Origin: a virus
DNA length: 22,584 nt
Virus record (IMG/VR): IMGVR_UViG_3300029998_000120
Coordinates: 1-22,584 of that record
Reading direction: 5' to 3' (one strand)
Part shown: piece by piece, positions 1 to 21,898 of the stretch
Position numbering within the stretch: the first letter of the stretch is position 1
How the letters are laid out: each line of letters opens with the position of its first letter
The notes under the pieces: generated by a model
The model's input: only the letters and a program-made list of their open reading frames with translations
Told to the model about the DNA's origin: nothing
Database searches by the model: none
Program-made: the position numbers and the translations under genes

Positions 1-116
1 GAATAGAACATATAAAAACTATAATAGGTGATGTTCTTATTATATGGGAAGATGATTATTATAGACACCCTGAAATGGTAATACAACAATGTTTAACATT
101 TTTAAAAAATGAATAA
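1..116 (+). CDS. C-terminal end of a Vsr-like homing endonuclease (5' end outside window)
   Basis: An open frame beginning at base 3 runs to a TAA at 114-116 and encodes about 37 residues. It includes GDVLIIWEDDY followed by an EMVIQQCLTFL segment. This 'IIWE-D...C..FL' ending is typical of the Vsr-like (very-short-patch-repair fold) phage homing endonucleases. The gene overlaps the next start codon (ATG at 109) and sits directly before a split-intein C-fragment. A free-standing endonuclease between two halves of an intein-split gene is the known 'fractured gene' arrangement. Only the tail is visible, so the catalytic residues cannot be checked. Family call is moderate; the coding nature is fairly secure. 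Confidence 0.6.
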   Translation, partial: IEHIKTIIGDVLIIWEDDYYRHPEMVIQQCLTFLKNE

Positions 117-453
117 AAAAATAATAAACTCATTTAATGTAGAAAATTTTCAAATCCTTACAGATTCCGGATTTGAAAATTTAAAAGCTATACATGAAAC
201 CATCCCATATAAATTATGGTTTTTGCGTACCAATTCGTATGAATTGAATTGCGCAGATCGTCATATCGTTTTTACTGATGATTTAAGCGAAAAATTTGTA
301 AAAGATTTGAATATAGGAGACATTATTCAGACTGCTAATGGTATGGAAAGTGTAATTGAAGTATATGAAACTTCATTAAAAGTGAATATGTATGATGCAG
401 AAGTTCAATCACAAAATCATCGATATTTTACTAATGGCATATTATCTCACAAC
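109..453 (+). other. Atypical split intein, long C-fragment (IntC)
   Basis: This 115-residue segment has Hint-fold features: the opening FQILTDSGF, CADRHIVF (the block usually written as a histidine-containing motif), VKDLNIGD, and a C-terminal block ending in His-Asn before Thr+1. Classical split inteins break late and have C-fragments of about 35-45 residues. Here the break is near the N-terminus, as in the AceL-TerL and VidaL type, whose N-fragments are only some 15-30 residues. The catalytic C-terminal Asn is residue 115 (codon 451-453) and the +1 nucleophile is Thr. The N-fragment should be fused to the clamp-loader N-half upstream. Confidence 0.85.
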
Positions 454-1263
454 ACTTCAACACTTTTTATTCTTTCCAAACCTTATACTACACTTTATAT
501 TAATGCTTCATCAGAACGCGGTATTGATGTTTTGCGTGATAAGATTGGAAAATTTTGTGCCACTATTTCATTAGAGGATGGAAAAGAAAAACTAAAATGT
601 ATTATTCTTGATGAATTAGATGGGGCAACTTCTGAATTCTTTAATGCTTTTAAAGCATCTATGGAACGCTATTCAAATGTTGCTAGATTTATTGCATCTT
701 GTAATTATATACAAAAGGTTCCTGATGCCATTCAATCTCGATTCAATTGTATTTCTTATGATGCTGTAAATAATGAAGAAGAGACTTATCTTATTGAAGA
801 ATATAAGAAAAGAGTTAGTTCAATACTAACTGCTGCGAAAATTTCTTTTACACCTGAAATATTAGATAGATTTGTTAGAAATGATTTTCCAGACATGAGA
901 AGTTTAATGAATAAACTTCAAAGCTTTTATCTTCAAGGAATAAAGGAACTTAATGCTAAGAATTTTAACATTAATTTTGACTTTGAAGATTTATATAAAA
1001 TATGCTTAGCAAAACAAGAGCCTTATGAAAATTATAAATTCATTGTTAGCGAATACGCAAGTAGAATCGATGACACTCTTAATGCATTGGCAATAGATTT
1101 TATTGAGTACATAAAAAGTAATGTCCCAAACAAAATAGATAAAATCCCGTTGATTATTATTGCAGTAGCTGAACATCAAGCACAAAGAACAATGGTCATA
1201 GATCCATTAATAACATTATTATCTGCAGTGTATAAGATACAATTAATAACAAATCAAAAATGA
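109..1263 (+). CDS. Split-intein C-fragment fused to C-terminal part of clamp loader large subunit (T4 gp44-like AAA+ ATPase)
   Basis: Residues 1-115 are an intein C-fragment ending in the motif HRYFTNGILSHN; residues 116-384 are the C-extein. The extein starts with T-S and continues with Walker B (IILDELDG, about residue 163), a sensor-1 region (FIASCNYIQKVP) and an IQSRF arginine motif. This is the order seen in gp44-like sliding-clamp loaders, which load the processivity clamp with ATP. The extein lacks its own GxxGxGK, so the N-terminal half with the Walker A motif must be encoded upstream of the window. The splice junction therefore falls right after the Walker A lysine, GK^T. Protein trans-splicing would rebuild the ATPase. 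The ATG overlaps the end of the endonuclease gene. Clamp-loader and intein calls are both strong from motifs. Confidence 0.88.
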   Translation: MNKKIINSFNVENFQILTDSGFENLKAIHETIPYKLWFLRTNSYELNCADRHIVFTDDLSEKFVKDLNIGDIIQTANGMESVIEVYETSLKVNMYDAEVQSQNHRYFTNGILSHNTSTLFILSKPYTTLYINASSERGIDVLRDKIGKFCATISLEDGKEKLKCIILDELDGATSEFFNAFKASMERYSNVARFIASCNYIQKVPDAIQSRFNCISYDAVNNEEETYLIEEYKKRVSSILTAAKISFTPEILDRFVRNDFPDMRSLMNKLQSFYLQGIKELNAKNFNINFDFEDLYKICLAKQEPYENYKFIVSEYASRIDDTLNALAIDFIEYIKSNVPNKIDKIPLIIIAVAEHQAQRTMVIDPLITLLSAVYKIQLITNQK

Positions 1264-1725: not shown

Positions 1726-2193
1726 ATGAAATTCATCTATACCGATATTGATTTTGTTTTATGTTTAGCTTCTGAGTATAAATATCATGACACTAAATGG
1801 GGACTTATTCAAAAGTTCAACCCTGGAGCTGTTAAGGTTTATAATCAAATTCTAACAGAAACTGGAGCTCTTCCAATCATCACAAGTGATTGGAGATATC
1901 ATTATAATTTAGAAAGTCTTCGGGAAATATTCTTAGAATGGGCTGGAATTATTGTCAAACCGGCAGGAATTACTCCTGAGATACCAGGGATTGTTTTACA
2001 AAGACAAGCAGAATGGAGAGCAAAAGAAATTCTGGAACATGTAAATCAATTCAAACCAGACTTTTGGGTCGCTATAGATGACTTAGATTTAAGCCCATGG
2101 ATAGATGCAAGTCACTTCGTTATCTGTCCAAGGTCTAATGAGGGTATAAAACAATGTGGAAAAGCAAACAAAGTAATTAAACTACTAATATGA
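1726..2193 (+). CDS. HAD-superfamily hydrolase/phosphatase (155 aa)
   Basis: The start is FIYTDIDFVL, giving the DxD nucleophile/acid pair (Asp7, Asp9) of HAD phosphatases; the usual Gly after DID is Phe here. Motif II is IITSDWR near residue 55 and motif IV is VAIDDLD near residue 117. The TSDWR motif and 'P.G.TP' segment resemble the HAD domain associated with RNA-repair proteins and other small phage HAD proteins. A polynucleotide or nucleotide phosphatase role is plausible but not proven. It has its own promoter with the -7 box almost touching the start codon. Its 3' end overlaps a small frameshifted ORF by ATGA. Confidence 0.75.
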   Translation: MKFIYTDIDFVLCLASEYKYHDTKWGLIQKFNPGAVKVYNQILTETGALPIITSDWRYHYNLESLREIFLEWAGIIVKPAGITPEIPGIVLQRQAEWRAKEILEHVNQFKPDFWVAIDDLDLSPWIDASHFVICPRSNEGIKQCGKANKVIKLLI

Positions 2194-7636: not shown

Positions 7637-8188
7637 ATGTTAACCGCATTTTATTTAACGATTTTAATCGTCGGATTGGCTATTTTTGTGCTGTCAATTT
7701 TTGCAGACTTTGGCCATGATTTTGATTTTCATACTGGAGATATTCATCCAGGTGATATAGGAGGCCATGATCTTGGTCAGGATTCTCCTGGTTTATTTTC
7801 ACTTCGTGCTATATCTGCAGGATTAGCTGGGTTTGGCGTAGTTGGACTTACAACAACACTGTATTTAAATTGGCCAATATGGGCTCAATTACTTGGGGGA
7901 ATTGGAGTCGGATTTCTATTTACTTATTTAGCGTATTTAATGATGAAAGTTTTTTATAGTCAACAAGCTGGAAAGCCTGCATCAACTGACACCACAGTCG
8001 GCAAATTTGCCACTATTACAATTGGAGCAGGCAAGCAAGGAATCGCTCAATGCAACGTGGAGAATCGTTATTATCCATGTATCTTAAATGATATAAACGC
8101 GCTTCCTTTGAAATTACATGAACAAGTAAAAATAGTTTCGGTATCAGGTAGTGGAGACACTTTAATCGTTGAAAAAATAATCATATGA
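7637..8188 (+). CDS. NfeD-like membrane protein (183 aa)
   Basis: An N-terminal transmembrane segment (residues 3-23) is followed by a His/Asp/Gly-rich loop (residues 24-50, FGHDFDFH... GDIGGHD). Two further membrane segments lie at about 58-78 and 82-104 (LLGGIGVGFLFTYLAYLMM). The C-terminal 65 residues (VGKFATITIGAGKQGIAQC... EQVKIVSVSGSGDTLIVEK) look like the beta-rich OB-fold of NfeD proteins. NfeD proteins are encoded next to flotillins and work with them in membrane microdomains. The flotillin gene lies 440 bases downstream, which supports the call. The His/Asp-rich loop could bind metal. Confidence 0.75.
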   Translation: MLTAFYLTILIVGLAIFVLSIFADFGHDFDFHTGDIHPGDIGGHDLGQDSPGLFSLRAISAGLAGFGVVGLTTTLYLNWPIWAQLLGGIGVGFLFTYLAYLMMKVFYSQQAGKPASTDTTVGKFATITIGAGKQGIAQCNVENRYYPCILNDINALPLKLHEQVKIVSVSGSGDTLIVEKIII

Positions 8189-8301
8189 AAACATTCTTTA
8201 AAGGACTAATGCAATATAACGCCACATATTGGTCATTAATTATATGTGGTTTTGCTTTGCTTATATTAGTTTGCTCAGTATTCGGAAAATTAATCTCTTA
8301 A
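8185..8301 (+). CDS. Single-TM small membrane protein (38 aa)
   Basis: ATG overlaps the NfeD stop. The peptide has a short polar start (MKTFFKGLMQYNATYW) then one hydrophobic helix (SLIICGFALLILVCSVFG). Placed between NfeD and flotillin genes it may be a small partner of that membrane complex. No family is recognised. Confidence 0.5.
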   Translation: MKTFFKGLMQYNATYWSLIICGFALLILVCSVFGKLIS

Positions 8302-8313
8302 AACAATTATAAA

Positions 8314-8602
8314 ATGAAAAAATTATTTGTAATGATGTTTATAACTGCTTTGTTTTACAGCTTGTTCAAAATCAAAAGAATTTACTGACAATAAAGGCAA
8401 AACATTTATTGCTGAGCCTTATGGTTGGTCTAATTCTGATGAAAATAAACTCGACACTGTTGTTTATAAAGTTAATACTGGCGATGTTATTTGGTCAGTC
8501 TTAGGTTTTGAAACGATTATAGTTCCAATTTGGCTTACTGGTTGGGAAGTAATGGAACCTAAGCGTCTTAAAAGCGCAAAAGAATACGAAAAACATAATT
8601 AA
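8314..8602 (+). pseudogene. Lipoprotein gene with a frameshift in its signal peptide
   Basis: ATG at 8314 gives MKKLFVMMFITALF, a typical signal peptide. The frame then shifts at a TTTT run (8353-8356). With one T fewer it reads on as TACSKSKEFTDNKG, giving an F-T-A-C lipobox with Cys at the cleavage site. The rest is an intact reading of about 80 residues (GDVIWSVLGFETIIVPIWLT ... EYEKHN) to TAA at 8600. The unshifted frame stops after 24 codons. It may be a homopolymer sequencing error, a recent mutation or phase variation; the downstream frame shows no decay. An outer-membrane lipoprotein beside NfeD/flotillin would be in keeping. Confidence 0.65.
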
Positions 8603-8630
8603 AATAACAATAAACTAAAAACAAACAACT

Positions 8631-10175
8631 ATGAATTTAATTGTCGTCGGCGCCATCGTGGCGGTCGTATTAATCATTTTTATCGGTCTTTGGTCGATAT
8701 TATCTAAAAATTATTACAGAATTGCACCTAACATGGCAGCAGTATTGTATGGTAGAAAAAATGTTGGAGCTGCTGGCGCAACCAAAGGTTATCGTCTTAT
8801 CACAGGTGGCGGTGTATTTAAAATTCCTTTTTTCGAGGAAGTAAAAATCATCGACTTATCTAACCGCGTGATCAACATTTCTGTTGCAAATGCTCCTAAC
8901 AAGGACGGTGTAATGACAACTGTAGATGCAGTAGCCAACACGAAATTTTCAAGTGATCAAGCTCTTTTGGAAATTGCAGTTGAACGTTTCCTTGGAAAAA
9001 CTGAGGATGAGATCAACAAAATTATCTTTCAAAATCTTGAAGGTCACCTTCGTTCAGTTGTGGGCAAGATGTCTATGGAAGAACTTATTGGAGATAAACA
9101 GGCTCTTAATCAAGCAGTTATGGAAGATGCTTCTGAAGATTTCAAGAAATTGGGTATCTCGGTTGATTCATTCAACATCCAGAACATTACTGACCACGCT
9201 GACTACATCGTTAACTTAGGTAAGAAACGTTCAGCTGAAATCAAAAGAGATGCTGAAATTGGTACAGCTGAAGCCGAAAGGGACTCAGTTATTAAAACTA
9301 CAGCAGCTAAACGTGCTGGAATTGAAGAAGCTAACTTAAATGATATTAAGATTGCTGAAGCAAACAAGTTAATGAATGTTAGGAGAGCTGAACTGAAAGC
9401 TGAAACTGACAAACAAAATGAAATTGCAGCTCAGGCTGGTCCTTTATCACAAGCTCAAGCAACTAAAGCTGTAATGCAAGCCAGAGCAGCTACCGAAGCA
9501 GCTTCAGAAGAAGCTCAAATCGCAGTTCAAGCTCAAAGAGCTTTAAAAGATACACAACGATACAACGCAGATGTTCTTGTACCAGCTGAAGCAAACAGAC
9601 AAGCTGCTATTATTCTTGCAAACGCAGAACAACAAAAGGCAGTTATTGCAGCTGAAGGACAACGTTTGGCACTTCAAAAAATTGCTGAAGGTGAAGCAAA
9701 TGCAATCAAAATTAAACTTGTAGCTCAAGCTGAAGGTGAAGCTGCGAAAATTGAAAGAATGGGTAAGGCTGAAGGCGAAGCTATTTACGCTAAACTTTCT
9801 GGTGAGGCTAAAGGTACACTTGAGAAAGCAGAAGCATATCAGAAATTGGATGCTACTGGTAAGTTTTTGGAAGTTCTTAATGCTTTACAAACACTTGGAC
9901 CTAATATTATCAAAGAATTTGCAGGAGTTATGGCTGCAAGTACTGCACACCTTGCAAATGTCAAAGACGTGAAAATAATCGATTTTGGTAATGGGCAAAA
10001 TGGTAATTCTACCATAGGCAAATATGGTTCAGCCCCAGTAGAACTTATTACTAAATTTACTGAGTCATTACAAGGCACAGGATTTGATATAAGTAAACTT
10101 ATGGGATTTTTGGGAATAAAAACTAATGATATTCCAACATTATCTGAACCTAAGAACATTGATCCTAAAAAATAA
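8631..10175 (+). CDS. Flotillin-like SPFH-domain membrane scaffold protein (514 aa)
   Basis: An N-terminal membrane anchor (residues 2-24, LIVVGAIVAVVLIIFIGLWS) is followed by the SPFH/band-7 domain (residues 25-200; RIAPNMAAVLYGRKN, FEEVKIIDLSNRVINI). Then comes a long coiled coil rich in Ala, Glu and Lys (residues 200-390; repeats such as AEIKRDAEIGTAEAERD and EGEAxAIK). This is the flotillin (YuaG/FloT, YqiK) plan and length. Flotillins oligomerise at the inner membrane and need NfeD partners, one of which is encoded upstream. The C-terminal 17 residues after GFLGIK look replaced: the likely original ending survives at 10726-10818 past an endonuclease insertion. Strong family call. Confidence 0.88.
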   Translation: MNLIVVGAIVAVVLIIFIGLWSILSKNYYRIAPNMAAVLYGRKNVGAAGATKGYRLITGGGVFKIPFFEEVKIIDLSNRVINISVANAPNKDGVMTTVDAVANTKFSSDQALLEIAVERFLGKTEDEINKIIFQNLEGHLRSVVGKMSMEELIGDKQALNQAVMEDASEDFKKLGISVDSFNIQNITDHADYIVNLGKKRSAEIKRDAEIGTAEAERDSVIKTTAAKRAGIEEANLNDIKIAEANKLMNVRRAELKAETDKQNEIAAQAGPLSQAQATKAVMQARAATEAASEEAQIAVQAQRALKDTQRYNADVLVPAEANRQAAIILANAEQQKAVIAAEGQRLALQKIAEGEANAIKIKLVAQAEGEAAKIERMGKAEGEAIYAKLSGEAKGTLEKAEAYQKLDATGKFLEVLNALQTLGPNIIKEFAGVMAASTAHLANVKDVKIIDFGNGQNGNSTIGKYGSAPVELITKFTESLQGTGFDISKLMGFLGIKTNDIPTLSEPKNIDPKK

Positions 10176-10184
10176 ATTGAATAA

Positions 10185-10778
10185 AACCTTTTCTATACTT
10201 TTAATGGAAAACGATATGTGGGAGATCATTCATGTAATGATCTCAATCATCATAAAACTAAATCATATTTAGGTAGTGGACGATATTTTTTACATGCTAA
10301 AAAAGAATATGGAAAAGAAAATTTCAAAAGAGAAATTCTATTATTTTTTCCAACAAAAAAAGAAGCATTTGATGCACAGGAAAAATATATTACGCAATTT
10401 AATACATTATATCCAAATGGTTATAATTTAAGTCCTACGGGTGGAATAGGGGTAAAGGGTTGTTGCTCTGCAGAAACTAAGAAAAAAATAGGGGATGCTA
10501 ATAGAGGTAGAATACCTGGAAAGGAAACTCGTGAGAAAATGGCAGCTTCAAGAACAGGTAATAAAAATGGTATGTATGATAAAAATCATTCCATTGAATC
10601 TTGTATTAAGATGGGCCAAACAAAAAAAGAAAAAGGGTGTGGCATAGCTGAAAAGAATGGAATGTTTGGTAAATCTCTATTTGAACATTGGAAAATTAAA
10701 TTTGGAGAAAAAATTGCATTATATTGGTATCAAACCAGAAGATGCCATGGCAATGTTAAACTCGGCAGTAAAAACTGA
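10185..10778 (+). pseudogene. GIY-YIG homing endonuclease with NUMOD3 repeats, truncated at both ends
   Basis: The frame reads NLFYTFNGKRYVGDHSCNDL then YLGSGRYFLHAKKEYGKENF, the GIY-YIG catalytic core. NUMOD3-type DNA-binding repeats follow (AETKKKIGDANRG, ETREKMAASRTGNKN, NGMYDKNHS, KNGMFGKS). There is no ATG before the YTFNGKRYVG motif: the frame opens just after a TAA at 10182, and the first usable start (GTG, 10218) would remove part of the motif. The C-terminus runs out of family homology after KFGEKIA and reads through flotillin remnant sequence in another frame. So it is probably a decayed mobile gene. It lies in the same frame as the upstream flotillin. Confidence 0.75.
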
Positions 10779-14617: not shown

Positions 14618-14688
14618 GACCGCATAGTATAATGGCAGTGCAAAAGTCTGCAAAACTTTCGGTTCCAGTTCGACTCTGGATGTGGTCT
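14618..14688 (+). tRNA. tRNA-Cys (GCA)
   Basis: Acceptor GACCGCA pairs with TGTGGTC. The anticodon arm is AAAGT-CTGCAAA-ACTTT (anticodon GCA) and the T-arm TCCAG-TTCGACT-CTGGA. The discriminator is U73, as expected for Cys. The genomic sequence continues CA, not CCA. Confidence 0.92.
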
Positions 14689-14700
14689 CATTAAAATACC

Positions 14701-14760
14701 GGAGCGCTCTACCGTCAATGAGCAAAGAGTTCGGATGTTGACAATTTCGAATCCGCTCCA
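14701..14760 (+). tRNA. Degenerate 60-nt tRNA-like element
   Basis: Ends GGAGCG and CGCTCC pair (6 bp). A D-arm-like GCTC...GAGC follows directly on the acceptor without the usual linker, and a TTTCGAATCC T-loop-like stretch remains. No proper anticodon arm or 5' T-stem strand can be drawn. It is either a decayed tRNA or a tRNA-like RNA. The 87 bases after it (14761-14847) contain only a TAGCT/AGCTA hairpin and nothing else I can identify. Confidence 0.4.
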
Positions 14761-14847
14761 ACAATATAGCTGTAGTAAAGAAAAGAGCTACTTCGAAATT
14801 TTGGTTTTCTAAACATTACCTCTTGTCGATTTTCTCAGTTATAATTT

Positions 14848-14920
14848 TGCCTCATGGTGTAATTGGCTAGCACTGCAGATTTTGATTCTGCCAGCTAAGG
14901 TTCGAATCCTTATGGGGCAA
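14848..14920 (+). tRNA. tRNA-Gln (TTG)
   Basis: Acceptor TGCCTCA pairs with TGGGGCA. The anticodon arm is GCAGA-TTTTGAT-TCTGC (TTG), and the T-arm contains AAGG-TTCGAAT-CCTT. The discriminator is A, followed by CA. Confidence 0.92.
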
Positions 14921-14926
14921 CAACAA

Positions 14927-15011
14927 TGTTCTCTGATGGAACTGAGCAGACATACCGGCCTTTGACACCGGTGCCTTTACAGGCGTACAGGTTCGAATCC
15001 TGTGGGGACAG
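14927..15011 (+). tRNA. Class II tRNA (Leu/Ser type) with an irregular anticodon loop
   Basis: Acceptor TGTTCTC pairs with GGGGACA, the variable arm is GCCT-TTAC-AGGC, and the T-arm is ACAGG-TTCGAAT-CCTGT. The D-arm (GATGGAACTG...GACATA) is Leu-like, but the discriminator is G73, a Ser feature. The anticodon stem CCGG/CCGG closes a 9-base loop, CCTTTGACA. Forcing a 7-base loop gives anticodon TTG with a C-A mismatch; TGA (Ser) is the alternative. Identity is left open. Confidence 0.65.
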
Positions 15012-15014
15012 CAT

Positions 15015-15078
15015 AAGCTTGGATAATGCACTGGTTGCAGCCCAAGGGTTAGTGAGATACAAACCTCGCTCCAAGCTT
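15015..15078 (+). ncRNA. tRNA-like element lacking an anticodon arm (64 nt)
   Basis: AAGCTTGG and CCAAGCTT form a perfect 8-bp terminal stem. Inside are TGCA-CTGGT-TGCA, CCC-AA-GGG and GTGAG-ATACAAAC-CTCGC. The size, acceptor-like stem and D- and T-arm-like hairpins are tRNA-like, but there is no T-loop consensus and no anticodon arm. It sits tightly between two tRNAs. It may be a decayed tRNA or a tRNA-mimicking RNA. Confidence 0.4.
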
Positions 15079-15082
15079 TTAT

Positions 15083-15155
15083 CGAGTATTAGCTCAGTTG
15101 GAAGAGCGCTACATTTGGGATGTAGAGGCCGAAGGTTCGAGCCCTTCATATTCGA
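15083..15155 (+). tRNA. tRNA-Pro (TGG)
   Basis: Acceptor CGAGTAT pairs with ATATTCG, the D-arm is GCTC...GAGC, the anticodon arm CTACA-TTTGGGA-TGTAG (TGG) and the T-arm GAAGG-TTCGAGC-CCTTC. The discriminator is A, then CA. Confidence 0.93.
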
Positions 15156-15172
15156 CAATAATAAAATTTATT

Positions 15173-15331
15173 ATGAAAGAAACAGAAGCACAAAAAGAAC
15201 AACGAGAAAAAGAAGAACAAGAAAGAAGAGAAAAAGAAAAAGCACATTATGCCTATTTACAACGCATTGAGGATCATTCACAAGATTATTACTTTCTAAA
15301 TGGACAATTAAATTGGAGATGCATCATATAG
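15173..15331 (+). CDS. Small coiled-coil protein, probably truncated (53 aa)
   Basis: The start is a charged helix of alternating Lys/Glu/Arg/Gln (MKETEAQKEQREKEEQ, then ERREKEKAHY), followed by DHSQDYYFLNGQLNWRCII. The last residues overlap the start of the endonuclease remnant, so the natural C-terminus may have been lost when that element arrived. No known domain. Confidence 0.45.
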   Translation: MKETEAQKEQREKEEQERREKEKAHYAYLQRIEDHSQDYYFLNGQLNWRCII

Positions 15332-15591
15332 GTAGATCTGAACGTTGGATTAAAATGTATGAAAATGGAACATTTCCTGCACATACAGGTTTTCTAAACA
15401 AACATCATTCCATCGACACAAAAAACAAAATGAAAATAAAACATGCCTTAAATAATCATCAACAGGGTATGCGAAATTCTCAATTTGGAAGTTGTTGGAT
15501 AACAAATGAAAACGAGAATAAAAAAATTAAAAGAAATGAAATAGTTCCTGCCGGTTGGCGATTAGGCAGAAAAATGAATACTACAACATAA
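15313..15591 (+). pseudogene. C-terminal remnant of a homing endonuclease
   Basis: The frame carries NUMOD3-like GHTGFL-type sequence (FPAHTGFLNKHHSIDTKNKM) and the characteristic tail NSQFGSCWITNENENKKIKR then EIVPAGWRLGRKM. The tail 'QFG..WI...KIK..E.P.GW..GRK' is common to phage-borne homing endonucleases. The catalytic N-terminal domain is missing. It appears fused onto the 3' end of the preceding coiled-coil ORF, another sign of decay. Confidence 0.7.
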
Positions 15592-15594
15592 AAA

Positions 15595-15646
15595 TGTTAA
15601 ACTTTTGTTAAAAGTTTTTTACTTTCGGCAAAATGAAATAAATTTA
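15595..15646 (+). promoter_or_regulatory. Promoter with inverted-orientation 17-bp direct repeat
   Basis: TGTTAAACTTTTGTTAA (15595-15611), TTTTTTAC (15615-15622) and TAAATTTA (15639-15646). The 27-base gap matches the promoter at 14365. It would drive the 15673 gene. Confidence 0.6.
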
Positions 15647-15672
15647 CATTTTAAACAATAAACATAAAAACC

Positions 15673-16209
15673 ATGACAAATTACATTTCAGGAAAAAAAA
15701 TTGACAGTGTAGCGGCAATCTTATTAACTTCCTATACTGAAAAGACTGCTAAATTAAAAAAGCAAATGGAAGAAGCTCTTACAGAAGAATGCAAAAAATT
15801 TCTTCCTAACGAAGTTCTTGACTTTTTCAAAATTTACCCAAATAAAGTACATGTTCATGGTAACGTTTCATTTTATTCTGGTTCCAAGTATTATTATTTA
15901 ACAGTAAAACTTCCGACATTGGAAATGGATGTTAATAGTCGTATTATTAAAAAGGGTACTGATATTTTTAATACTCTTACTAAATTAGCAGAAGAATCTG
16001 AAGCTAATGAACGTGAATATATTATAACAAGGAATCAGATAAAATGCACACTTTCAAAACTAAGAACATATAAACAAATTCAACTTAATTTTCCAGAAGC
16101 ATATGATATTTTGGTTTACAAAGTTGATAAAGTTGATAAAGTTACGGAATCACTTTGTGATAATGTAGAAGAATTAAGAGCAAAATTAAATAAAGAAATT
16201 CCGAAATAA
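15673..16209 (+). CDS. Hypothetical protein (178 aa)
   Basis: A helical N-terminal half (IDSVAAILLTSYTEKTAKLK, KQMEEALTEECKKFLPNEVL) is followed by a strand-rich middle (VHVHGNVSFYSGSKYYYLTV) and a helical end with a short duplication KVDKVDKV. It has its own repeat-controlled promoter and a normal start. No family is recognised. The stop codon lies at the base of a structured intergenic RNA. Confidence 0.7.
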   Translation: MTNYISGKKIDSVAAILLTSYTEKTAKLKKQMEEALTEECKKFLPNEVLDFFKIYPNKVHVHGNVSFYSGSKYYYLTVKLPTLEMDVNSRIIKKGTDIFNTLTKLAEESEANEREYIITRNQIKCTLSKLRTYKQIQLNFPEAYDILVYKVDKVDKVTESLCDNVEELRAKLNKEIPK

Positions 16210-16311
16210 CTGATAAATCAGGTTCTCCTGATAAAACAGTTGAAGAATTCCATTGCGGGATTCTTGGGGTAGACGAAAGTTCCCCGGAGAGACTCTGTTA
16301 AAAGTTTCTCT
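16208..16311 (+). ncRNA. Structured intergenic RNA with four consecutive hairpins
   Basis: Hairpin 1 is AACTG/CAGTT, a symmetric ATAA/AAAA internal loop, then ATCAGG/CCTGAT with loop TTCT (16208-16241). Hairpin 2 is AAGAATTCC-ATTGC-GGGATTCTT (16243-16265). Hairpin 3 is GGGG/CCCC around TAGACGAAAGTT (16266-16285). Hairpin 4 is AGAGA/TCTCT (16288-16311). They follow each other with 0-2 bases between and end 10 bases before tRNA-Glu. The density of pairing far exceeds that of other intergenic DNA here. Confidence 0.5.
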
Positions 16312-16321
16312 GAAAAAATTT

Positions 16322-16394
16322 GGCGAGTTCGTCTAATAGGTTAGGACATAGGCCTTTCAAGTCTACGACACGGATTCGAATTCCGTACTCGCTA
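16322..16394 (+). tRNA. tRNA-Glu (TTC), copy 1
   Basis: Acceptor GGCGAGT pairs with ACTCGCT, the anticodon arm is TAGGC-CTTTCAA-GTCTA (TTC) and the T-arm ACGGA-TTCGAAT-TCCGT. The discriminator A is followed by CCA. The final A of CCA is the first base of the next gene's ATG. Confidence 0.92.
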
Positions 16395-16396
16395 CC

Positions 16397-16708
16397 ATGA
16401 AAACAAAAAGATTGGAAACACCGTATGGGTGGATTGATTATCATTATGAAATATCTGAAAAATACCCAAAGGGATTGTTAATTTTAATGGGAGGATATAT
16501 TAATATGGCTGAAAGAGGTCACGGCAGATACACAGAGATATTGAGCGACCTTTTTAATATGATGCCAATGGATACTATAGTTCAGGCTTCAGTAGCGCAT
16601 CAAGGGTTAATTCCAATGTTTAAACGATTAGGCTTTAAAAAAGTAAAAAGAATTGAATATTGGGGTGAACGTTCCTATCCCATTGAAGGAAAAATTGAAA
16701 AAAAGTAA
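16397..16708 (+). CDS. Short GNAT-like acetyltransferase domain protein (103 aa)
   Basis: The segment GYINMAERGHGRYTEILSDL resembles the acetyl-CoA binding loop and helix of GNAT enzymes (R-G-x-G-x...). VQASVAHQGLIPMFKRLGFK matches the final 'N..li..fekhGF' strand-helix. At 103 residues it lacks part of the N-terminal GNAT sheet, as is common for short phage GNAT proteins. It starts on the CCA end of tRNA-Glu. Substrate unknown. Confidence 0.65.
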   Translation: MKTKRLETPYGWIDYHYEISEKYPKGLLILMGGYINMAERGHGRYTEILSDLFNMMPMDTIVQASVAHQGLIPMFKRLGFKKVKRIEYWGERSYPIEGKIEKK

Positions 16709-16714
16709 AATAAA

Positions 16715-16746
16715 TTTTTTATTGTCAAGAATTTATATTACCTTTG
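16715..16746 (+). promoter_or_regulatory. Bacteroidetes-type promoter for the second tRNA block
   Basis: TTTTTTAT (16715-16722), a 16-base gap and TACCTTTG (16739-16746) followed by TATTT. It lies 16 bases before tRNA-Glu copy 2. Confidence 0.65.
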
Positions 16747-16762
16747 TATTTCTATTAAAAAA

Positions 16763-16834
16763 GGCCCGTTCGTATAGGGGTTAGTACACTGGGTTTTCAG
16801 CCCAGTGACAGGGGTTCGATTCCCCTACGGGCTA
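16763..16834 (+). tRNA. tRNA-Glu (TTC), copy 2
   Basis: Acceptor GGCCCGT pairs with ACGGGCT (first pair G-T), the anticodon arm is CTGGG-TTTTCAG-CCCAG (TTC) and the T-arm AGGGG-TTCGATT-CCCCT. The discriminator is A, followed by CA. It is a second tRNA for the same codons but only distantly similar to copy 1. Confidence 0.93.
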
Positions 16835-16889
16835 CACAAAGACTGTTAGGATTTTATAGAAGGCCAGTTACCTTGCATAGAAATTCAAA

Positions 16890-17101
16890 TGCCCTCTTAG
16901 CTCAGGGGTAGAGCGTTCGGGTGAAGCCGAAACTTGAAGCATAATGACGAGAATGGATGTACAAATTCTGCGCAGGAAATGTAATGATTATTCAAGTTCG
17001 TGTAGAGAGGTAGATGAACTTCAGATGTCTAGAGGAATAACGTTTGAATCTAGAAAGAGTAGTGTAGTCGAGGGGACCGTGGTTCGATGCCACGAGGGGC
17101 A
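16890..17101 (+). tRNA. Composite tRNA-Phe-like element with a ~135-nt insertion
   Basis: The 5' half is tRNA-like: GCCCTCT-TA-GCTC-AGGGGTA-GAGC then stem TTCGG/CCGAA around GTGAAG, with GAA as possible anticodon in a loop one base short. A good T-arm, CGTGG-TTCGATG-CCACG, and AGGGGCA come only at 17078-17101. Between them are consecutive pairings: ACTTGA..ATAAT/ATTATTCAAGT, AAGTTC/GAACTT and TCTAGA/TCTAGA. The acceptor pairs imperfectly (about 5 of 7). The insert is too short for a group I intron. It may be an interrupted tRNA, a fusion of two tRNA halves or a tRNA-like RNA. Confidence 0.45.
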
Positions 17102-17106
17102 CAATT

Positions 17107-17243
17107 TACGTCAATGATTACGAAGGGGCGCAAGCTTTTAACGTACGATCGGGTTAAAAGTGGCTACCCATAGAGGTATCAGAGGTTGAAAAAGAGGTGT
17201 ACAACTCTTTTAAACTTTGGAGGTTCGATTCCTTCTAGACGTA
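17107..17243 (+). tRNA. Composite tRNA-like element with a hairpin inserted after the 5' acceptor strand
   Basis: TACGTC at the start pairs with GACGTA at the end. The T-arm is GGAGG-TTCGATT-CCTTC. An anticodon-like stem AAGAG/CTCTT closes an 8-base loop containing GTA. Between the acceptor strand and the rest lies about 60 bases with a perfect 8-bp hairpin CTTTTAAC/GTTAAAAG (17135-17160). Removing 17113-17170 restores a 7-bp acceptor ACGTCTA/TAGACGT. The amino acid is uncertain (Tyr-like anticodon). Confidence 0.4.
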
Positions 17244-17250
17244 CAAATCA

Positions 17251-17299
17251 CTAGGCTGTCACCCGGTGACTGAGTGGTTCGAAACACTCAGAGGATAAA
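17251..17299 (+). tRNA. tRNA 3' half with Asp-type anticodon loop, 5' half missing
   Basis: The loop CTGTCAC (anticodon GTC) is flanked by CACT-A-GG and CCGGTG. A T-arm-like CTGAGTG-GTTCGAAA-CACTCAG follows. No D-arm or 5' acceptor strand lies upstream, where the preceding element ends. It overlaps the start of the next element. Confidence 0.35.
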
Positions 17300-17406
17300 A
17301 AGTGTAATGGCGCACACCATGAAGTTAGAATGCACGCCACCCGGATTGAACGGGATGAGGCAGCACAGAACGGAAAGGAAGATAGGGTTCGAATCCCGTT
17401 TATTCA
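17293..17406 (+). tRNA. Composite tRNA-like element with an insertion in the D-loop
   Basis: GGATAAA pairs with TTTATTC (one G-T). GTGT-AATGGC... and ...GCAGCAC would form a D-arm if about 50 bases (17312-17360) were removed. These inserted bases contain their own pairings. The T-loop is GGG-TTCGAAT-CCC, with discriminator A then CA. No anticodon arm with T33 can be found. The real nature is uncertain. Confidence 0.35.
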
Positions 17407-17580
17407 CATTGTATATGCATGGAGAATCCCCGTGTTGCGGTGGCACATGAAAGCAGAGATGCGTACAGATTAGCATGAACAACTAATGGCTCTAACGATA
17501 TTGTAGAATATGTAGTGAATCGAAAGGTTACTTCGTGGATTGAAAAATACTTTTTGGCGCTTTTTTCTCATTTTTTACAA
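17407..17580 (+). other. Non-coding stretch with RNA-like pairings
   Basis: No ORF fits. Visible pairings are ATTAG-CATGAACAA-CTAAT (17470s) and AATCGAA/TTCG..GATT near 17518-17543. Base composition is less AT-rich than intergenic DNA elsewhere, as in the tRNA region. It may continue the tRNA-like series, but I cannot fold it into a defined family. Confidence 0.3.
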
Positions 17581-17598
17581 AACTTTTTAATGAAGTGA

Positions 17599-17607
17599 TA
17601 TATAATC
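17599..17607 (+). promoter_or_regulatory. Possible -10-like box TATATAATC
   Basis: TATATAATC lies 29 bases before the lipoprotein ATG. The identical nine bases occur at 19684-19692, downstream of a 17-bp repeat. This is weak evidence on its own. Confidence 0.35.
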
Positions 17608-17635
17608 TTTAAATAAACTAATCTTAAAAATTAAC

Positions 17636-17782
17636 ATGAAAAAATTATTCTTTGCTCTCATTGCTTTTGCTTTAATCTCATTCGCAGCTTGTAAATCAAC
17701 ACCCACAACTACTGAATCTACTAATACCGATTCTACAGCTCAAGTTGATACTATTGTAATTGATAGCGTACCTGCTCAGTAA
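17636..17782 (+). CDS. Small lipoprotein (48 aa)
   Basis: MKKLFFALIAFALISFAAC is a complete lipoprotein signal peptide with lipobox F-A-A-C and Cys19. The mature part is short, polar and Thr/Ser-rich (KSTPTTTESTNTDSTAQVD). Such small lipoproteins can act in lysis or superinfection exclusion; nothing here decides. A GNRA hairpin, TTGCC-GAAA-GGCAA (17790-17803), follows the stop and precedes a tRNA. Confidence 0.7.
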   Translation: MKKLFFALIAFALISFAACKSTPTTTESTNTDSTAQVDTIVIDSVPAQ

Positions 17783-17805
17783 CAAAACATTGCCGAAAGG
17801 CAACT

Positions 17806-17882
17806 GCCCCCTTAGCCCAATAGGAAGAGGCACAACGTCCTTAAAAGGCGTAAAAGTAAGGGTTCGAATCCCTTTTAGGGCA
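17806..17882 (+). tRNA. tRNA with Leu TAA anticodon but no long variable arm; likely rebuilt 3' half
   Basis: The 5' half is GCCCCCT-TA-GCC...GGC and the anticodon arm ACGTC-CTTAAAA-GGCGT (TAA). The T-arm is AAGGG-TTCGAAT-CCCTT. The adjacent 3' acceptor TTAGGGC pairs with only four bases of GCCCCCT. A second 3' half at 18693-18717 ends AGGGGGT, which pairs with GCCCCCT along all seven positions. Bacterial Leu tRNAs are class II, so the short variable region is also odd. Confidence 0.6.
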
Positions 17883-17934
17883 CTCATTACAGTTTGTTCA
17901 CTTTTCCAAATTCGCATGAATATATAGAATAAAA

Positions 17935-18696
17935 ATGTATATTTGTAATTGCGGAAAGGAATTTGAAAAATCACAATCTTATAATAGCCATTGTTCAAAA
18001 TGCAAGATTCATATAAAGATATTAAAACCATCTATATATAAAAAAGATGACATTTATATATGTGAATGCGGTAAAGAATTTATTAAATCACAATCATTAA
18101 ACTCTCACTTTTCACATTGTCTCATACATAGAAAAGGTGAACCAGAAAAACCAAGAGGAGGCAATAAAAATTGGAGTAAAGGATTAACTAAAGAAACTGA
18201 TAAGCGTGTTAAATCACAGAATGATTCATGGAAAGCTAGTGTTATAGCTGGCACATATGTGCCAACGTTTTTGAACAAACATCATACTTTAGAAACAAAA
18301 CAACAAATGTCTAAATCGGCATCAGAAACAAATAATGGATACGTTAAAACTAGATATTATGAAATTTTCTGCCCGCATGATAATAAAAATGTAAAAGTCC
18401 AAGGTACTTGGGAATTAAAATACGCTGAATATCTTAACAAAAATAAGATCAATTGGGCACGTCCTAAAACTCGAATTTTATACACGCTATTTGACGGGGA
18501 TTATTCTCATAGTTACTTCGCAGATTTTTATCTACCAGAATCAGATACATTTATAGAAATAAAGGGCCATTGGTGGAAATCTAAAGATGGCAGAGTGGAT
18601 GATAAAAGAAAAATGAAATGTGTTTTGGAACAAAATCAAGACAAAAATATCATAATTCTTACATTATCTGAATTGAAAGTATTAAACATATTATGA
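17935..18696 (+). CDS. Homing endonuclease with zinc fingers and a PD-(D/E)XK/Vsr-like nuclease domain (253 aa)
   Basis: Two N-terminal zinc-finger-like repeats come first: CNCGKEFEKSQSYNSHCSKC, then CECGKEFIKSQSLNSHFSHC. A linker with NUMOD3-like sequence follows (TFLNKHHTLETKQQMSKSA). The C-terminal nuclease domain includes VQGTWELKYAEYLNKNKI (helix with Glu), SYFADFYLPESDTFIEIKGH (D..EIK, the PD-(D/E)XK core) and a final IIILTLSEL strand. It would cut DNA near its own insertion site and so promote its spread. The stop codon lies inside a tRNA T-arm, and the gene is flanked by tRNA halves, so the tRNA is the likely target. It appears intact. Confidence 0.8.
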   Translation: MYICNCGKEFEKSQSYNSHCSKCKIHIKILKPSIYKKDDIYICECGKEFIKSQSLNSHFSHCLIHRKGEPEKPRGGNKNWSKGLTKETDKRVKSQNDSWKASVIAGTYVPTFLNKHHTLETKQQMSKSASETNNGYVKTRYYEIFCPHDNKNVKVQGTWELKYAEYLNKNKINWARPKTRILYTLFDGDYSHSYFADFYLPESDTFIEIKGHWWKSKDGRVDDKRKMKCVLEQNQDKNIIILTLSELKVLNIL

Positions 18697-18717
18697 GTTC
18701 GAATCTCATAGGGGGTA
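18693..18717 (+). tRNA. Orphan tRNA 3' half (T-arm and acceptor strand)
   Basis: ATGAG-TTCGAAT-CTCAT and AGGGGGT-A, followed by CA. AGGGGGT is complementary to GCCCCCT at 17806 (one G-T pair). It overlaps the endonuclease stop codon. It is probably the displaced original 3' end of the 17806 tRNA. Confidence 0.6.
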
Positions 18718-18727
18718 CAACAAAGAA

Positions 18728-18982
18728 ATGAAAAAAGAAGCACCTGATCACTACTGGAACATACGAGTACTAACTCGAATATATGATAATTCCGATGAAC
18801 GAGATTTCTTTTTAACTGAAGTTCATTACGATAAAGGAATTCCAGTTGCATATGCAACTGGAAGAAATAATTATGCAGGCGCTGATATAAAGGAATTAAA
18901 TTGGAGATTAAATAGAATGAAAGAAGCACTCAAAAAACCAATTTTGGATGCTAACAATTGGCCCAACGAGTGGGCAAAATAA
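18728..18982 (+). CDS. Conserved small protein of unknown function (84 aa)
   Basis: The pattern YWNIRVLTRIYDNSDERDFF, EVHYDKGIPVAYATGRN, LNWRLNRMKEALKKPILDAN matches a widespread small bacterial protein type ('Y.YRV......F.IHEV.Y....P..Y.......L......M..AL.KPIL'). No biochemical role is known to me. It begins about 10 bases after the orphan tRNA half. This family is common on bacterial chromosomes and plasmids, so it may have been acquired. Confidence 0.65.
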   Translation: MKKEAPDHYWNIRVLTRIYDNSDERDFFLTEVHYDKGIPVAYATGRNNYAGADIKELNWRLNRMKEALKKPILDANNWPNEWAK

Positions 18983-18990
18983 AAATATAT

Positions 18991-19080
18991 CGCGGGTTAG
19001 AGTAGAGGACTAACTCTTCGGGCCCATAACCCGACACAGTCTGTTAAAGATTGTCATCCGTCCGAATCGGATACCCGCTA
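18991..19080 (+). tRNA. tRNA-Met (CAT), initiator-like, with an extra hairpin in the variable region
   Basis: Acceptor CGCGGGT against ACCCGCT leaves pair 1-72 as a C-T mismatch. The D-arm is GAGT...ACTC and the anticodon arm TCGGG-CCCATAA-CCCGA (CAT) with three G-C pairs next to the loop. Both are hallmarks of initiator tRNA. The T-arm is ATCCG-TCCGAAT-CGGAT. The variable region is 21 bases and can fold as GAC..AGTCT/AGATTGTC. Position 33 is C instead of the near-universal T. Confidence 0.7.
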
Positions 19081-19113
19081 CTCGGTGAACTTTTTGAAAT
19101 TTTCTTTGAATAT

Positions 19114-20194: not shown

Positions 20195-21898
20195 ATGTCA
20201 AAGTACAATGAAAAGAGGGTATCAATCCCAGATCAAAAGCCAACTGTAACATTACAAGGTGGCCCAGGCTTTACTCAAAAAGCTGAAAAAGAATTAATAG
20301 GCATTCTTTCAACAGGCTTATCTAATACTTTTTACGAAAAGGAAACTGAACGTGAAAAGAGATTTAAGGAAGTTCTTAATGAAGTTGCTAAGAAAAACCC
20401 ATTATTTGCTGCAAAAGCTCTTATCTACGCACGTACAGTGTTTGGTCAAAGAAGTGTTACACACTATGGCGCAGTAGAACTTATTGCTCATTTATCAGGA
20501 ACCGAACTTGCAAAAAGATTTTTCTCAAAGAGAGACCGTAAGGTTAATCGTGGAGGTATTATCTATCGTCTTGATGATATGGCTGAAATCTTAGCTTGTT
20601 ATCAAGCAAAGAATGGCGCTAAGGCTCCAATGCCAAACTCATTAAAGAAGGGTTTCAAAGATGCAATTGAAAACTCAGATGCATACACTCTTGCAAAATA
20701 TCAAATGAAGTCAAGAGGTATAAGTCTTGTTGATATTGTTAATTTGGTTCACCCTCATGCAACAACTACAAATGGTACAGTAAAAGTATCATTAGATGAA
20801 TTCAAGAAAGCTATAAAAGGAACTAAATTTGAAAAGGAATATGATTTTTCATTTTTAACTCCAGAAGAAACTGTGATGGAAATCCCAGCTATCAGAGCAT
20901 TAGTTCTTGGCATTTTGAAGCAATTCAATACTGCTGAAGACAAGAATACAAAGTCTGGACAAGAAGTTGCAGTAGCAGTTAAATCAGGAGAACTTTCAGT
21001 TGAACAAGCTAAGATTGTTCTTAATGATGCTAAAGTTGATAACTATATTGAACTTATTAAAACCAAGAAAATTGGTTATCTTGCTCTTGTTCGTAAATTG
21101 AGAAATATTTTACAAACAAACAACATGGAAGTTCTTGACCTTGCTTGCGATCTTTTAGTGAATGAAAAGCTTATCAAGCAATCACTTATATGGCCTCACC
21201 AAATTGACCTTGCATTAGAAATAATGACATTGGAATTTTCGGGACAAGCAATGGCAAAAGTTACAAAGGCTTTAGGAATAGCTTATGAGCTTTCAATTCC
21301 TAATCTTGAAAATTTATTACCAGAAGGAAGAACCGCAGTTGTATTTGATACTTCAGGCTCAATGGGTTTTTACTCACACGTTCAAAGTGATAAGGATGGA
21401 AAAGCTTGTCAAATTAATTCGACTCCTGCTGAAAAGGCTGCTCTTGTAGCTGCAACTTTTGCTAAGGGTGTAAATGGAGACGTTTATCACTTTGCAGATA
21501 GAGCAGAAAAAATTACTGGCTGGAATCCTAATGACTCTGTAAATACTTTGAAACAAAAATTCAAAGGATACAGTGGACGTCAAGGTCACGGTACTGATTT
21601 TGGATCATGTTTTGACTTATTTGTACAAACAAATCAACAATATGATCGCGTTTTGATTATCAGTGATGAACAAGATGGATACGGAAACGTAGAAAACAAA
21701 TGGAAGACATACTGTAACAAGTTTGGAACTCCATACGTTTATATCATCAATGTTTGTGGATATGGCCCAACAGCAATGAAAGACGGTGGAAAGGTATTCA
21801 GATTATTCGGATACACTCAAGCTATCTATGAAACGATTCCGCAATTCGAAATGAACCCTCAAATCGTGATTGATGAAATCAACAAGATAGAAATTTAA
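20195..21898 (+). CDS. Ro60/TROVE-domain RNA-binding protein with vWA domain (567 aa)
   Basis: Residues 30-370 match the helical TROVE repeat ring: FYEKETEREKRFKEVLNEVA, NPLFAAKALIYARTVFGQRS, HYGAVELIAHLSG. The C-terminal third is a von Willebrand A domain with the MIDAS residues in FDTSGSMG (about 384-391), GHGTDFG (about 464) and ISDEQDG (about 489). Ro60/Rsr proteins form a ring that binds misfolded RNAs in its hole and Y RNAs on its outside; bacterial Rsr works with tRNA-like Y RNAs in rRNA processing and RNA degradation. The length is normal for the family. Family call is strong. The partner RNA is unknown, but irregular tRNA-like elements lie just upstream. Confidence 0.9.
   Translation: MSKYNEKRVSIPDQKPTVTLQGGPGFTQKAEKELIGILSTGLSNTFYEKETEREKRFKEVLNEVAKKNPLFAAKALIYARTVFGQRSVTHYGAVELIAHLSGTELAKRFFSKRDRKVNRGGIIYRLDDMAEILACYQAKNGAKAPMPNSLKKGFKDAIENSDAYTLAKYQMKSRGISLVDIVNLVHPHATTTNGTVKVSLDEFKKAIKGTKFEKEYDFSFLTPEETVMEIPAIRALVLGILKQFNTAEDKNTKSGQEVAVAVKSGELSVEQAKIVLNDAKVDNYIELIKTKKIGYLALVRKLRNILQTNNMEVLDLACDLLVNEKLIKQSLIWPHQIDLALEIMTLEFSGQAMAKVTKALGIAYELSIPNLENLLPEGRTAVVFDTSGSMGFYSHVQSDKDGKACQINSTPAEKAALVAATFAKGVNGDVYHFADRAEKITGWNPNDSVNTLKQKFKGYSGRQGHGTDFGSCFDLFVQTNQQYDRVLIISDEQDGYGNVENKWKTYCNKFGTPYVYIINVCGYGPTAMKDGGKVFRLFGYTQAIYETIPQFEMNPQIVIDEINKIEI

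Follow-up and report, generated by a model that had tools for sequence, protein, structure and literature searches.

A clamp-loader gene probably fractured at its Walker A motif by an atypically split intein in a phage genome

Introduction

How a phage could obtain a complete clamp loader from a gene that is interrupted in the middle of the Walker A motif is the question raised by the first bases of the virus record IMGVR_UViG_3300029998_000120 (22,584 bases; this whole stretch is called the window here). The record holds no DNA upstream of position 1. From the window, a first-pass annotation had proposed that the open reading frame (ORF) for the clamp loader gp44 starts with a 115-residue Hint-like segment ending ILSHN^T (^ marks the junction), that this segment is the C-fragment of an atypically split intein of the AceL-TerL/VidaL class, and that the tail of a Vsr-like endonuclease lying between the gene halves overlaps the start of the C-half. 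An upstream ORF ending in a Walker A motif, fused to an N-fragment of 15-35 residues led by Cys (or Ser), was predicted from this. The results below bear out these proposals at the level of sequence.

Results

Layout of the locus

The upstream DNA was retrieved by an IMG/VR scan with the C-half as query, which gave contig L002 (IMGVR_UViG_3300029983_000112). Across 11,260 bases L002 has 100% identity to the window, and it extends the sequence upstream by a further 4,576 bases (window position = L002 position minus 4576), and together they make about 27 kb of the genome visible. The locus consists of the following parts:

L002 3312-3563, outside the window: N-half ORF of 83 codons, gp44 residues 1-49 plus the 34-residue N-terminal intein fragment (IntN)
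L002 3595-4692: endonuclease ORF of 365 codons, Vsr-like, between the halves
Window 1..116, plus strand: 3' end of the endonuclease ORF, its last 37 codons and stop; for the whole ORF, a region with conserved D280/E291/H298, homologues in 33 other breaks and a Foldseek match to Vsr 1cw0
Window 109..453, plus strand: C-terminal intein fragment (IntC) of 115 residues, Met1-Asn115, with block B CADRH, block F MYDAEV and NHRYFTNGILSHN
Window 454..1263, plus strand: gp44 C-extein of 269 residues, whose first residue Thr+1 is the threonine of Walker A and which includes Walker B ILDE; PHROG 168, gap-free junction

The N-half product reads MSNTIEQLFTERFRPKDFNLLIAPSRIKNELSKGLVQNLLLYGSAGSGK for the gp44 extein, which ends GSAGSGK, and continues with CVCENTIITLKNKETGEIFDISFKNFMDQQEMER for IntN. 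The C-half ORF (window 109-1263, 384 residues) opens with 115 residues that end ILSHN, followed by Thr and by gp44 without its first 49 residues, and the native junction reads GSGK^TST. The C-half begins at L002 4685 (window 109) and the endonuclease stop is at window 114-116, giving an overlap of 8 bases. The second codon before ATG109 is a stop in the same frame, so this ATG is the most likely start of the C-half. A scan of the break for promoters and terminators gave matches at chance level only.

Complementary pieces of a Hint domain are thus carried by two ORFs, each fused to one extein half, and a free-standing endonuclease gene lies between them, as in fractured genes of the Dassa type. 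We conclude that gp44 of this phage is very probably such a fractured gene, made as two proteins, in which a short IntN would dock on IntC for trans-splicing at GK^T.

The clamp-loader extein and its empty sites

The clamp-loader part of the C-half matches the PHROG 168 clamp loader (E 2e-36). When the intein and the endonuclease are removed, a gp44 of 318 residues results that is 80% identical to the intact gp44 of the relative L003, gapless at the junction and collinear with gp44 throughout, P-loop and Walker B included. Another 21 gp44 homologues were recovered and GK^T is uninterrupted in every one of them, and the neighbours of the gene are kept, with a Nudix gene and a small ORF upstream and a HAD gene downstream. 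The collinear join, the uninterrupted homologues and the conserved neighbours together identify the element as a precise insertion between the Walker A Lys and Thr. Layout, residues, precise junction, intein family and empty sites are established at the level of sequence. Intein-like matches were also seen at the N-end of the intact gp44 (L003, from residue 99), and these were rejected as a chance alignment of the P-loop region.

The intein fragments

With a Cys-led IntN of 34 residues and an IntC of 115, the intein falls within the atypical split, where IntN has 15-37 and IntC more than 100 residues. NCBIfam intein_Cterm scored 19.2 bits on the C-half ORF (curated cut-off 15.6), and IntC matched VidaL (E 1.4e-9) and Cat (E 3.6e-7) by sequence, with an E of 2.6e-14 to VidaL for the IntC profile. 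The AlphaFold model of IntC (pLDDT 91.9) has the Hint fold; at E<=0.001 its fold search returned 44 entries, all of them inteins or intein-like domains, and the list is headed by VidaL (TMq 0.81), followed by Cat. H52 (in the ADxH of block B), D96 (block F), H104, H114 and N115 are invariant over 41 relatives, and the splice-site nucleophiles are Cys1 of IntN and Thr+1 of the C-extein. The Ala in block B is unusual, and it is present family-wide as well as in VidaL, which is active despite it (PMC13014065).

IntN was also recognised by a profile of other IntN sequences built without the window phage, which gave one clear match (E 3.8e-10; next 0.34) among 557 ORF segments in six frames, although this profile contains the IntN of L032, 79% identical to the gp44 IntN over 24 residues. 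Since there was a single clear match across all six frames, the identification is not due to chance. A search of IntN alone against PDB gave nothing relevant. L032 (3031-6048) carries an AceL-like fractured TerL with the site ^CF. Its IntN shares 19 of 24 residues and 56 of 72 nucleotides with the gp44 IntN (L002 3459-3560), but the two IntC are only 25% identical, and this mismatch between IntN and IntC is the largest of 1830 pairs. The mismatch suggests an exchange of N-fragments between intein families.

Among known systems VidaL (PDB 6VGV) is the closest, with the best sequence and fold match, Cys dependence, a short IntN and block B Ala for Thr (CAFNH, as compared to CADRH in gp44). However, the VidaL IntN has 16 residues and is split right after beta-2 (PMC13014065), as compared to 34 in gp44. 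An IntN range of 15-37 residues is covered by AceL-TerL, GOS-TerL, VidaL and PolB16 (PMC13014065), and GOS-TerL is split into 37 and 115 residues (PMC11766414). The gp44 intein is like AceL-TerL, GOS-TerL and Cat in its atypical split, with IntN of 25-37 and IntC of 104-115 residues in those (PMC11766414, PMC13014065). They differ from it in having Cys at +1 (PMC11766414), whereas the gp44 intein sits at the clamp-loader GK^T with Thr at +1; the low IntC identity to the AceL-like C-fragment at the ^CF TerL site of L032 also sets it apart. The 'classic' P-loop intein of mycobacteriophage TerL1-a likewise separates the Lys of the P-loop from its Thr (PMC5050341), but the mycobacteriophage P-loop inteins are not described as split (PMC5050341), whereas the family of the gp44 type is mostly split near the N-end.

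The endonuclease

Relatives of the endonuclease were found in 33 other breaks, in Clp, helicase, gp46 and TerL genes (phmmer E about 4e-6 or better, small set). D280, E291 and H298 are conserved in its C-terminal domain, and the model of the protein was matched by Foldseek to E. coli Vsr 1cw0 with probability 1.00 (TMt 0.62, E 0.084). Several of the relatives weakly match the DUF559 and MTES_1575 nuclease models but the ORF of the window phage itself does not; by itself it gave irrelevant weak matches only in Pfam, and its profile matched no nuclease sequence in PDB, including I-Bth0305I of the EDxHD homing family. On the modelled fold and the conserved acidic and His residues, we read the enzyme as Vsr-like, and it is probably the homing endonuclease of the cassette.

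Proposed mechanism

Residues Cys1 and Thr+1 belong to class 1 splicing, which after docking of IntN is an established route. From the architecture of the locus we infer trans-splicing, inactivity of the halves and homing, as follows. The 34-residue IntN would dock on IntC and complete the Hint domain, and an acyl shift at Cys1, transfer to Thr+1 and cyclisation of Asn115 aided by His114 would then ligate the halves at GK^T into a complete gp44 of 318 residues. Until then, the G...GK of the P-loop would be in one half, and the P-loop threonine and Walker B in the other. Since the P-loop lysine is separated from the threonine and Walker B, neither half should hydrolyse ATP, and both halves are likely to be inactive until they are joined. 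The Vsr-like endonuclease would spread the whole cassette of IntN, endonuclease and IntC to gp44 alleles that lack it.

A wider family at Walker A sites

Scanning IMG/VR with the IntC profile gave 267 related stretches, and a second scan with a different profile at least 502. From the first scan 62 distinct C-fragments were classified: 47 split, 8 contiguous and 7 without an N-half in the available DNA. The classified members sit at Walker A GK^T/S in TerL, DnaB-like helicase, SbcC/gp46 (Rad50) and Clp ATPase (two sites), as assigned by PHROG on representatives and by C-extein starts for the remaining members, and gp44 occurs once in the family, at the locus of the window phage. N-fragments are mostly 28-62 residues long. 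The order N-half, endonuclease, C-half recurs in TerL, helicase, gp46 and Clp genes, and there are also breaks of no more than about 70-200 bases that have no endonuclease. The junction DNA reads GGnAA(A/G)^ in 55 of 55 cases, the Gly-Lys part of this consensus being partly imposed by the N-half search method, and C follows at +2 in 52 of the 55.

Several single loci deserve mention. The TerL gene of LR756500 (L025 2238-5828, minus strand) is split with an endonuclease in the break, and its IntC ends SSQ^T, not SHN^T, so that both usual C-terminal catalytic residues differ. The cultured Pseudomonas phage phi30-2 (L028 2215-5233) has an unannotated fractured UvsX, split at GESG^S, with a 17-residue IntN after GESG, a Vsr-like endonuclease ORF and a VidaL-like IntC before SGKS. 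Contiguous TerL inteins occur in Ackermannviridae, VAP7, Kuja and CBA120 among them. In vB_VmeM-32 (L019 1102-3216) TerL has a GK^T C-fragment and a contiguous intein at another site; in VP-1 (L030 3488-6830) the TerL GK^T intein is contiguous and a second site is split with a GIY-YIG-like ORF. The TerL IntC of L105 (5953-6357) has an in-frame stop in an otherwise intact C-fragment, by decay, error or recoding.

Movement between genes

The gp44 IntC shares 54% identity with an IntC in a DnaB-like helicase and 53% with one in TerL, while extein similarity between the host genes stays at chance level (best E 0.019). This pattern is not explained by vertical inheritance from one ancestral P-loop protein, so transfer between genes is needed. 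Host-gene labels cluster on the IntC tree (11 changes vs. 19.5 when shuffled), which is too short for the backbone, the placement of gp44 or the donor gene. A broader reading, to which we give an even chance, is that one atypically split intein family with a linked lineage of Vsr-like endonucleases colonised the GGnAAR^AC junction (GK^T/S) in five or more families of phage ATPase genes (TerL, DnaB-like helicase, gp46/Rad50, Clp D1 and D2, gp44) without detectable extein similarity, the hops being due to a target that these genes have in common in their Walker A coding sequence. We hypothesize that the endonuclease recognises the Walker A codons.

Alternative explanations

Three points weigh against a functional fractured gene as read here. 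The fold match of the endonuclease to Vsr is weak by E-value in spite of its high probability, most of the genome is unseen and a second gp44 could lie outside the roughly 27 kb, and the contiguous N-half/endonuclease/C-half stretch is known from one contig, L002, the window beginning inside the endonuclease. The unseen genome and the single gp44 instance would also suit a decaying element, where insertion of the endonuclease broke the gene, splicing was lost and the phage either relies on a different clamp loader or can do without one. We consider this improbable, as all three ORFs are open, the catalytic residues are family-invariant and the extein is collinear with, and closely similar to, its intact relative. 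A complete clamp-loader gene elsewhere had been named in the first-pass annotation as the observation that would speak against a split gene, and neither L002 nor the window contains a second gp44. Decay is possible in the family, as the stop inside the L105 IntC illustrates, but nothing of the kind is seen at the gp44 locus.

Joining could instead take place in the mRNA, if the 1.1-kb break were a group I or group II intron and its removal gave a contiguous intein; endonuclease-bearing introns do occur in phage TerL genes (PMC10448857, PMC3322345). However, an Rfam search of L002 found no intron family in the break, the C-half opens, downstream of an in-frame stop, with an ATG of its own at a position typical of the family, and the same split is found with the very short breaks described above, which makes an intron highly improbable. 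That L002 was misassembled, with an unrelated N-half placed next to the endonuclease, is just as hard to credit: a single contig carries the joined stretch, but the N- and C-extein come from the same gp44 clade and fit at residue precision, IntN and IntC are of one family and the identical layout is seen in many independent contigs. The fractured, trans-spliced gp44 is accordingly the explanation that we retain.

Other genes of the phage

Elsewhere, the phage has genes with an RNA-repair flavour, for HAD_SAK_2, a TROVE/Ro60-domain protein and RlaP (window 1726-2193 and 20195-21898; L002 69-1220), and 8 tRNA genes at window 14618-19081. Endonuclease-like ORFs are found at window 10218-10778 and 17935-18696; the first contains NUMOD3 (186 residues), and the second is zinc-finger-like, with a weak DUF7487 match, and lies between tRNA genes. 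Window 7637-10175 holds a gene for an SPFH/Band 7 (flotillin-like) protein of 514 residues, preceded by a 183-residue ORF that has no Pfam match and a membrane-spanning look by eye.

Discussion

Fractured genes, with split inteins and a Vsr-related free-standing endonuclease between the halves of a host enzyme gene, were reportedly described by Dassa et al. in 2009 (NAR 37:2560, as cited in PMC7090010). Our literature search found no split intein in a clamp loader or at the gp44 GK^T, the loci of Dassa et al. not being among those compared. Because both split inteins with endonucleases and the GK^T site were already known, we file the gp44 element as a new case within a known kind. The suggestion that a clamp-loader split at GK^T would be a new member stands for gp44 but not for the site, which is already a 'classic' P-loop site (PMC5050341). 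A 2026 paper names only four natural atypically split inteins, AceL, GOS, VidaL and PolB16 (PMC13014065). The view of this class as rare does not hold, as hundreds of relatives are present in phage metagenomes, and the Walker A family is apparently undescribed and broader than the consulted literature describes.

Taken together, the locus adds an atypically split intein whose native junction is clear, and it leads to hundreds of others; short N-fragments are wanted for protein semisynthesis. The family makes it possible to test how inteins move between unrelated genes, whether the Walker A codons serve as their common target, and how phages might keep ATPases that are essential for replication and packaging switched off before the halves are spliced.
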